Assembly (NCBI GenBank): GCA_003599595.1
Contig: QZIP01000035.1
Location: 1-36,978 of the forward strand
Source of the DNA: Candidatus Parcubacteria bacterium
GTDB taxonomy: Bacteria; Patescibacteriota; Microgenomatia; Levybacterales; GWA1-39-11
Reading direction: 5' to 3'
Length of the DNA: 36,978 nt
Position numbers and translations under genes: made by a program. The notes beneath the pieces are model-generated. The model searched no databases. It had not been told where the DNA came from and was given only the letters and a program-made list of their open reading frames with translations. Shown piece after piece: positions 4,561 to 19,026 of the stretch (positions are counted from its first letter, which is position 1; each line of letters begins with the position of its first letter).

Positions 4561-4618
4561 AAGAATAATTTTTATGAAAATTGATATTAAATATGTTGTG
4601 AAGTTGGCGAATTTGGGA

Positions 4619-5258: not shown

Positions 5259-5262
5259 TCTT

Positions 5263-5544
5263 ATGAAAATTGATATTAAGCACGTGGCAAAATTGGCAAA
5301 TCTTCCCCTTACTCCTGAGGAAGAAGAAAAATACGGCAAGGAGCTTCCAAAGATTCTTGATTATTTTAACAAATTAAATGAATTGGACACTCAAAATGTA
5401 GAACCTACTTTTAGCGTTATTGACCTTTCAAATGTGATGAGAAATGATGAAGTTTTACCTAGTCTCTCACAAGACGAGGCATTAAAAAATGCTCCCAAGA
5501 AAGAAAATGGACTTATAAAAGTTGAGACAATATTTAAAAAATAA
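5263..5544 (+). CDS. gatC: Aspartyl/glutamyl-tRNA amidotransferase subunit C
   Basis: The small subunit of the GatCAB amidotransferase, which converts misacylated Glu-tRNA(Gln) and/or Asp-tRNA(Asn) to the correct aminoacyl-tRNA. GatC wraps around the GatA/GatB interface and stabilises the complex. The sequence has the family pattern: IDIKHVAKLANLPLTPEEEEKYGKEL, then LNELDTQNVEPTFSV and the conserved NVMRNDEV motif. The start ATG at 5263 gives 93 residues, a normal length; an upstream TTG start would overlap the NYN gene and add residues unlike GatC. It follows NYN by four bases and precedes gatA by one base, giving a gatC-gatA-gatB operon. Confidence 0.93.
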   Translation: MKIDIKHVAKLANLPLTPEEEEKYGKELPKILDYFNKLNELDTQNVEPTFSVIDLSNVMRNDEVLPSLSQDEALKNAPKKENGLIKVETIFKK

Positions 5545-16197: not shown

Positions 16198-18043
<1,846 letters not shown>

Positions 18044-18136
18044 TTCCGTGATGTTAAGATTAACCAACGTTTTTGAATAACACGGATTATAGCGTTACCA
18101 AGAGTTTTTTATAATTCTGATATTAACTTAACGCGC
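18044..18136. other. Noncoding DNA after atpC, possible weak terminator
   Basis: No gene is visible. CCGTG at 18046-18050 can pair with CACGG at 18081-18085, and a weak TAAC/GTTA stem (18078-18096) comes before T6 at 18105-18110, which could be a poor terminator for the atp operon. The word CGGAT appears at 18083 and recurs at 18139, 18264 and 18300. CGTGATGTT at 18047-18055 repeats a word from the atpE-atpF gap. Confidence 0.4.
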
Positions 18137-18268
18137 TACGGATTATGCCCTTCACACTTGAAAATGTGTTATCCCAAGGAGCGGGCCTATTTCATAGCGG
18201 CGGGGGTATAACACCTTCTAGACTGATCCCGATTAAACCGGGATACAGTAAGAAGGGCATATACGGAT
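18137..18268. ncRNA. Compact three-stem element flanked by 7-bp direct repeats (structured RNA or small palindromic mobile element)
   Basis: Exact direct repeats TACGGAT (18137-18143 and 18262-18268) directly flank exact inverted repeats TATGCCCTTC (18144-18153) and GAAGGGCATA (18252-18261). Inside are two more ten-base stems: GTGTTATCCC (18166-18175) with 18204-18214 (one bulged base), and ACTGATCCCG (18222-18231) with 18239-18249 (one bulged A), giving a three-way junction. A four-base hairpin ACAC/GTGT (18154-18157, 18166-18169) competes with the second stem, and CTTC at 18215-18218 could compete for the closing stem. Base composition is clearly richer in G and C than the neighbours. No coding frame fits. 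Strand and expression are unknown. It matches no RNA family I recognise; it was compared with 5S rRNA, tRNA and SRP RNA and rejected as each. Confidence 0.55.
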
Positions 18269-18312: not shown

Positions 18313-19026
18313 ATGAAGTCTAGGACGTCGAGAAGAATAGAGAAACAGAGCAAAAAACAATTTTATATATTCTTAATTGGAATTGTTGTAATCCTTTTCT
18401 TAACCCTAAGGTTTGGGATATTAATACTTGATGGGTTGGGAAGTTTATCCATAAAGCTTAAAGGAGAAAAGACTCCTGCTCAACAAATTCAGAAAAATAT
18501 TTTTCTGGAATCTCCCACTCTTAATTCTATAGTCAACGCAACCAGCAGTTCCCTTGTAAATGTTTCAGGAAAAACAAAATATGACAAAGGATCTATTGAA
18601 GTATTTCTGAATAATGAACTGCATCAAGAATTGACTCCGGAAGAAAAAAAATTTGAGCTAAAAAATATAGTTCTTCTAGAAGGACAGAACTCAATAAAAG
18701 TCCGCTATAAAGACATTGACAATAAAGCAAGTGATTTTTCTCAGGAATATTTAATTACCTATATTAAAAGCGAGCCCAAGCTTGAGATTAATTCCCCAGA
18801 AGATGGTTCCTCCTTTTCAAAAGGAGATCAAGAGATAAATATTCAAGGGAAAACAGAGCCCGATAATAAGCTAACAGTTAATGGTTTCTGGTCAATTATT
18901 GATGGAGAAGGAGAATTTTCCCATTATTTAAGACTGAATGAAGGAGAAAATTCAATTAAGATTGAGGCAACTAATCCTGCAGGCGCAAAAACAACAAAAA
19001 TAGTTAACGTAACTTACTCTCCATAA
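18313..19026 (+). CDS. Membrane-anchored surface protein with two Ig-like domains
   Basis: A 237-residue protein with a basic N-terminus (RTSRRIEKQSKKQ), one membrane helix at residues about 17-40 (FYIFLIGIVVILFLTLRFGILIL), a short linker, then two beta-rich repeats. The first spans about 62-152, beginning IFLESPTLNSIVNATSSSLVNVSGKT; the second, about 155-235, beginning EINSPEDGSSFSKGDQEINIQGKTEPDNKLTVNG. Both share the pattern of bacterial Ig-like folds resembling the glucodextranase B-domain or Big families: VxGKT, a central LxEGxNSIKI and a C-terminal strand. The protein should be anchored in the membrane and face outside. Function is unknown; an adhesion or scaffold role is inference. Its 3' end overlaps the convergent O-antigen-ligase-like gene by 23 bases. 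Confidence 0.75.
   Translation: MKSRTSRRIEKQSKKQFYIFLIGIVVILFLTLRFGILILDGLGSLSIKLKGEKTPAQQIQKNIFLESPTLNSIVNATSSSLVNVSGKTKYDKGSIEVFLNNELHQELTPEEKKFELKNIVLLEGQNSIKVRYKDIDNKASDFSQEYLITYIKSEPKLEINSPEDGSSFSKGDQEINIQGKTEPDNKLTVNGFWSIIDGEGEFSHYLRLNEGENSIKIEATNPAGAKTTKIVNVTYSP

Follow-up and report, generated by a model that had tools for sequence, protein, structure and literature searches.

In the genome of a Candidatus Parcubacteria bacterium, the gap between the epsilon-subunit gene atpC (17609-18043; Pfam ATP-synt_DE) and a Glucodextran_B-domain gene of 237 aa (18313-19026) holds a compact palindromic element, and the question that this locus raises is what such an element is and how it came to lie there. 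A preliminary description of the window (the whole 36,978-nt stretch of DNA that was analysed) had reported exact 10-bp terminal inverted repeats, TATGCCCTTC and GAAGGGCATA, exact TACGGAT heptamers directly adjoining them and CGGAT words recurring in the surroundings, all of which are present (Table 1), and had read them either as the mark of a palindromic element that had transposed and duplicated 7 bp of its target, or as a structured RNA. The analysis presented here favours, with a probability of roughly 0.83, a non-autonomous, non-coding, MITE-like mobile DNA repeat, bounded by TATA...TATA, that would insert at TA and be moved in trans, and of which one copy with a long first hairpin has landed between atpC and the Glucodextran_B-domain gene. 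The segment folds far more stably than its shuffled versions (-47.7 versus -31.3 +/- 3.3 kcal/mol; z -4.97), none of 200 shuffles being as low. Elsewhere in the window, two 41-nt stretches (4572-4612 and 5261-5301) are 80% alike and both contain ATGAAAATTGATATTAA, possibly as a partial gene duplication.

Table 1. Parts of the window element and of its flanks, in window coordinates.
Feature	Position	Strand	Basis or remark
Whole element, long-H1 / C-type copy	18144..18261	+	1 of 11 full copies in the genome
Hairpin H1	18144..18210	+	family alignment, pair counts
H1 pairing, TATGCCC with GGGTATA, one G-T	18144-18150 with 18204-18210	+	pair counts
H1 inner stem, CACA/TGTG	near 18153-18168	+	family alignment, pair counts
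Insert of ~33 nt within H1, carrying small hairpins of its own	18170..18203	+	copy comparison
Hairpin H2, CCTTCT (18214-18219) with AGAAGG (18251-18256)	18214..18256	+	fold, pair counts
H2 apical hairpin, exchangeable, CTGATCCCG / CGGGATACAG	18223..18248	+	copy comparison
Left terminal inverted repeat, TATGCCCTTC	18144..18153	+	starts with TA, the target dinucleotide inferred from other copies
Right terminal inverted repeat, GAAGGGCATA, TA at its end	18252..18261	+	
Left flanking TACGGAT, host sequence	18137..18143	+	probably a repeat pre-existing at the site
Right flanking TACGGAT, host sequence	18262..18268	+	

Copies and Distribution of the Family

Far from being a single copy without compensating homologues, the element belongs to a family of many dispersed copies. 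A search for further copies in the same genome, suggested in the preliminary description, brought the number in the window's genome (G000; 1.40 Mb, 52 contigs, 85% complete) to 13, of which 11 are full (84-118 bp) and 2 are left halves, on eleven contigs, lying in either orientation and with flanks that bear no relation to one another. These copies differ by modules: the first hairpin (H1) may or may not contain an insert of 33 nt, and the second (H2) has one of two apical hairpins, CTGATCCCG... or CTGATTTAGCAAC... The H1 insert of the window copy recurs in 4 further copies of this genome (3 full, 1 half) and in 2 copies of the Levybacteria genome RIFCSPHIGHO2_01_FULL_36_15 (G005), the nearest named relative in the same family, and the short form is without it; the apical place of H2 is taken in other copies by the hairpin TTTAGCAAC...GTTGCAAA. 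End-pattern searches for a longer, autonomous version in the window's genome gave just the known copies, the two left halves and weak sites with 3 mismatches. One left-half, long-H1 copy (C2:47780-47855) adjoins an apparent nucleoside-deaminase gene that is devoid of its N-terminus, as if the other half of the copy and the start of the gene had been lost together.

Homologues with compensating changes were also found beyond this genome by a covariance-model search, likewise suggested at the outset. The model detected copies in 4 of 99 genomes, including the window's own, and a pattern scan of named genomes gave 19 sites. Every one of these belongs to a Microgenomates-group or Patescibacteria record (Gottesmanbacteria and Levybacteria among them), and viral contigs have no match to the H2 pattern. 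Seven genomes from the pattern scan hold 2-12 model matches each, and the set analysed comprises 58 full copies from 11 Microgenomatia genomes; G066, G099 and G103 have 6, 7 and 3 model matches, respectively. The family, whose members measure about 85-140 bp, has undergone lineage-specific expansion, the nearest neighbour of the backbone coming from the same genome in 33 of the 58 copies compared with 9.5 when labels were shuffled. On a wider scale, of the 374 genomes of the class, 30, representing 29 genera, contain the core pattern TCTA-N20-50-GTAAGANGRGTATA, against 3 matches of the reversed pattern across the whole 374-genome set; two single matches (G013 and G397) resemble chance, and the wider family is put at about 28 of the 374.

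A further subfamily (AGTAAGATGGGTATA), which differs in its arm sequences and not in its architecture, is present in G100, G105, G106, G114 and others; it often outnumbers the window's subfamily and raises the right ends to 36 in G100 and 28 in G105. At one locus (L103, G102 C86), two copies lie 650 bp apart with a nucleotidyltransferase-like gene between them and share about 20 bp of left flank, which looks like a local duplication. Rfam 15 gave no credible match at the element, and a literature search on palindromic repeats and transposable elements in these lineages, mostly of non-subscription sources, found no description of the family.

A Conserved Fold of Two Tandem Hairpins

In the short form, the structure of minimum energy has hairpin H1 (TATACCC...GGGTATA) followed in tandem by hairpin H2 (CCTTCT...AGAAGG), the latter with its conserved asymmetric loop, and it is this fold, instead of the three-way junction proposed initially, that the family conserves. 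Across the 58 copies, changes on both sides are seen in 25 of 28 pairs, 89.2% of the cells are paired (80.0% when shuffled and at most 52.3% when slid) and the covariation score is 0.290 (0.135 shuffled, at most 0.100 slid), the pairing and covariation figures leaning toward the two-hairpin structure since the alignment was fitted to it. One of the 58 distinct alignment rows is a weak reverse-strand match and was excluded from later counts. The covariation of the arms is visible by eye in TATACCC/GGGTATA, TATACT/AGTATA, CCTTCT/AGAAGG, TCTTCT/AGAAGA, CTG/CAG and CCG/CGG. Moreover, H2 encloses a conserved asymmetric internal loop (AGA / TA), and its conserved core is TCTA...GTAAGA.

The closing terminal stem is well preserved in the window's genome, and positions 18147/18258 of the window copy have changed in a compensatory manner from A-T to G-C relative to the family; the stem is lost in G066, G077 and many Gottesmanbacteria copies. 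The terminal inverted repeats extend over 10 bp in the window's and Levybacteria copies and are not conserved in those of G066, G077 and G100, whose hairpins are. As for the inner ten-base stems that had been described, their sequence is indeed present, but GTGTTATCCC/GGGTATAACAC is private to the window copy, the family consensus being TATAACTCC. With the closing pairing lost in so many copies and one inner stem restricted to a single one, the three-way junction was rejected as the conserved fold.

The Search for a Mobilizing Enzyme

Two transposase families were covered by the search for a mover, DDE_3 (IS630-type) and Y1_Tnp (RAYT), and each corresponds to a particular version of the mobile-element reading. 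The repeats could be MITEs that derive from an IS630/Tc1-mariner-type (DDE_3) transposon, in the manner of the pneumococcal RUP; this would be in keeping with the TA ends, the TA target inferred below and the terminal inverted repeats of the window's and Levybacteria copies. However, DDE_3 has no match at E <= 0.01 in any of 28 genomes, 20 of them carriers, and the terminal inverted repeats are precisely the part that the hairpin-bearing copies of G066, G077 and G100 fail to conserve, so that this parentage is unlikely and IS630 was discarded as the mover.

The same degree of doubt attaches to a REPIN-type element moved by a RAYT, a Y1 HUH transposase, acting on folded single-stranded DNA. The pair of hairpins, their covariation at the DNA level and the intergenic dispersal would fit such a system, and Y1_Tnp matches are common in these genomes, with six in the window's. 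Nevertheless, the carriers G066, G099 and G103 have no Y1_Tnp match, a model search of more than 40 RAYT loci revealed no adjacent copy (the one strong match, in G320, lies about 1.1 kb from its RAYT), most of the RAYT genes read are accompanied by other palindromes, and the flanks of the copies, whose columns carry at most 0.32 bits, contain no conserved tag of the GTAG/CGTC type. RAYT was thus also rejected as the mover, given the lack of adjacency and its absence from three carriers. The six RAYT-like Y1 transposase genes of the window's genome are on contigs C8, C13, C16, C21, C24 and C33, and those read have flanking palindromes of their own, for example CACCTCCAAGGTG-like ones and ATCGAGGTGAGACCTCGAT, which apparently constitute separate REP systems.

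Selection on Folded DNA or on RNA

In the alternative reading as a structured RNA, the element would be a cis-regulatory leader or an mRNA processing or stability element, spread by duplication and kept for its RNA fold. The strong covariation of the stems is consistent with this reading, as is the gene context in some lineages: the downstream gene is in sense for 8 of 9 copies in G100 and for 8 of 9 in G105, where copies tend to lie close upstream of start codons, the called start often being no more than about 25 nt away, and three pairs of copies in different genomes have the same downstream gene (window C11 and G066 C35; C18 and G100 C39; G105 C20 and G100 C59), compared with about 0.5 expected by a rough estimate. 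The first of these pairs includes the window copy itself, with a Glucodextran_B-type gene in common. Such same-neighbour copies could reflect old vertical inheritance or a local or retained function in some lineages. In G066, the homologue of the Glucodextran_B-domain gene (L086, C35) shows 37% over 175 aa and also follows a copy; the upstream genes differ between the two loci.

Against an RNA, just 4 of the 11 full copies in the window's genome are in sense to the downstream gene, orientation being mixed there, the neighbour genes are mostly unrelated, one G210 copy splits a gene and Rfam is without a match. Nor was an intrinsic terminator, that is, a GC-rich stem followed by a T-run, found at the element, and this identity was set aside. 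The 55 gaps in which both neighbours were called divide into 21 ++, 17 -+ (divergent), 13 -- and 4 +- (convergent), figures that are approximate since the gene calls are longest open frames.

The mismatches tolerated in the stems bear directly on this choice. If a plus-strand RNA were selected, G-U should exceed A-C; G-T and A-C are instead found in 43 and 40 cells, or 34 and 33 if repeated occurrences in a given genome and pair are collapsed into one. In contrast, the tRNA stems of these loci show 16 versus 0 (Fisher p = 1.3e-4), a control that is somewhat favourable because ARAGORN, which supplied the tRNAs, itself prefers paired stems. The prior of the model would favour G-U and, therefore, the observed symmetry is conservative. 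This strand symmetry points to selection acting on folded DNA, of one strand or the other, rather than on RNA. The structured RNA envisaged in the preliminary description thus becomes the less likely of its two readings and an improbable one, which still leaves room for a regulatory role in some lineages.

Insertion Sites and the Target

The mobile DNA repeat is the reading that the insertion sites favour. A copy in G104 lies between rplP and rpmC, where about 20 related loci, as read at their rplP ends, have none; the 7 near-identical copies of G210 end exactly in TATACC...GGGTATA amid unrelated flanks; and at L315 (G210) a copy sits inside an O-antigen-ligase-like gene (Wzy_C domain). To judge from such contexts, the copies are insertions, into an operon in G104 and into a gene at L315, and these, together with the many copies and the compensating homologues, bear out the transposed palindromic element proposed from the window alone. 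At L303, what looked like an interrupted gene was not attributed to an element.

When the halves of the L315 gene are joined by TA, a 390-codon frame results, compared with 219 codons when joined directly and 209 when joined by TATA. At L319, a TA at the junction can be read as giving a TAG stop after a TPR-like frame, and at L106 as giving an ATPase stop that overlaps the next start as ATGA. The rplP-rpmC copy of G104 is the exception, as direct joining restores the rplP stop and TA fits only with a later added TA. One strong frame argument and two weaker ones, with this exception, make TA the likely, though not proven, target, in which case the TACGGAT repeats would be no target duplication. 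When all copies were examined for frames that they might interrupt, the remainders were mixed, most of them coming from short or spurious frames. Termini are TATA in most copies, where a TA target duplication and cleavage beside TA without duplication would look the same, and beyond the terminal TATA there is no conserved target, with positions +2/+3 of the right flank leaning to A and T at 0.25-0.32 bits.

A 7-bp target duplication, suggested by the exact TACGGAT that adjoins both ends of the window copy, is very improbable, since this is the only flank repeat at offset zero among the 58 copies, the L315 frame needs a remainder of 2 that 7 does not give, and the 9-mer ACGGATTAT recurs at 18082, outside the element. 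Among the 58 copies, flank repeats of at least 6 bp near both ends number 8 versus 1.3 expected, at varying offsets, and position-by-position tests of the flanks detected no consistent repeat register, so that a 7-bp duplication was rejected for want of a fixed one. Most likely, the TACGGAT pair is a local repeat already around the site; with a TA target, the empty site of the window would read CTACGGAT-TA-TACGGATAG, a short pre-existing repeat.

A mechanism for the mobile repeat may be outlined from these features. The mobilizing enzyme would recognize folded DNA, with the hairpins extruded in single-stranded or supercoiled DNA, and the near-invariant base of H2, TCTA / GTAAGA, may be the main recognition site. 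Insertion would leave one TA per side or, equivalently, follow cleavage next to TA, and the loop hairpins might be swapped between copies by recombination. A more far-reaching proposal, offered here tentatively and at less than even odds, is that of a class-wide superfamily of mobile palindromic DNA with a TA target and apical-hairpin shuffling, recognized as a folded two-hairpin strand by an enzyme that is neither RAYT nor IS630.

Comparison with Known Repeat Systems

PATE elements and IS200-IS605 derivatives carry a hairpin at either end and are short and non-autonomous, as is true of the window's family, in whose flanks, unlike theirs, no conserved target tetranucleotide is seen. The family resembles the TA-type MITEs of bacteria (Correia/NEMIS, RUP, ERIC and CIR; PMC2229807) in being shorter than 200 bp, non-coding and mostly intergenic, with 5'TA3' termini and strong secondary structure. 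CIR consists, likewise, of two independent stem-loops without terminal inverted repeats, and Correia also has size forms that differ by an internal insert (PMC2229807). However, when compared by description, the present family differs in being defined by a class-wide covarying two-hairpin fold and not by terminal inverted repeats shared within a single species or genus. It also differs from TA-type MITEs in that its apical hairpins are exchanged and no partner transposon was found among the DDE_3 and Y1 families searched, although many accepted bacterial MITEs are also without a known partner transposase (PMC2229807).

With REP/REPIN and RAYT systems (PMC3733652, PMC3116915), the family has in common paired intergenic palindromes, a likely action as folded single-stranded DNA and hosts that often encode RAYTs. 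Unlike REPs and REPINs, it has no GTAG/CGTC tag at the hairpin foot, does not lie beside RAYT genes and is present in genomes without a Y1_Tnp match. Moreover, convergent gene pairs enclose few of its copies (4 of 55), in contrast to REPs, for which unidirectional and convergent gaps are the favoured places (PMC3733652, PMC3116915).

Implications for Streamlined Genomes

The element represents a new family of TA-ended MITE-like repeats, of a general kind that is known and unusual in its class-wide range, its covarying fold at the DNA level and its exchangeable hairpins. Small repeats of such a kind are usually confined to one species or genus. Here, a single fold, kept with compensatory changes, is found in many families of a class whose members are streamlined and, for the most part, uncultured, and carriers have as many as dozens of copies per genome of about 1.3 Mb. 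The family raises the question of what enzyme would move a hairpin element with a TA target where the usual candidates are missing. It shows that a mobile element is, or was until recently, active in these reduced genomes, and its copies can serve as markers for strain comparison.
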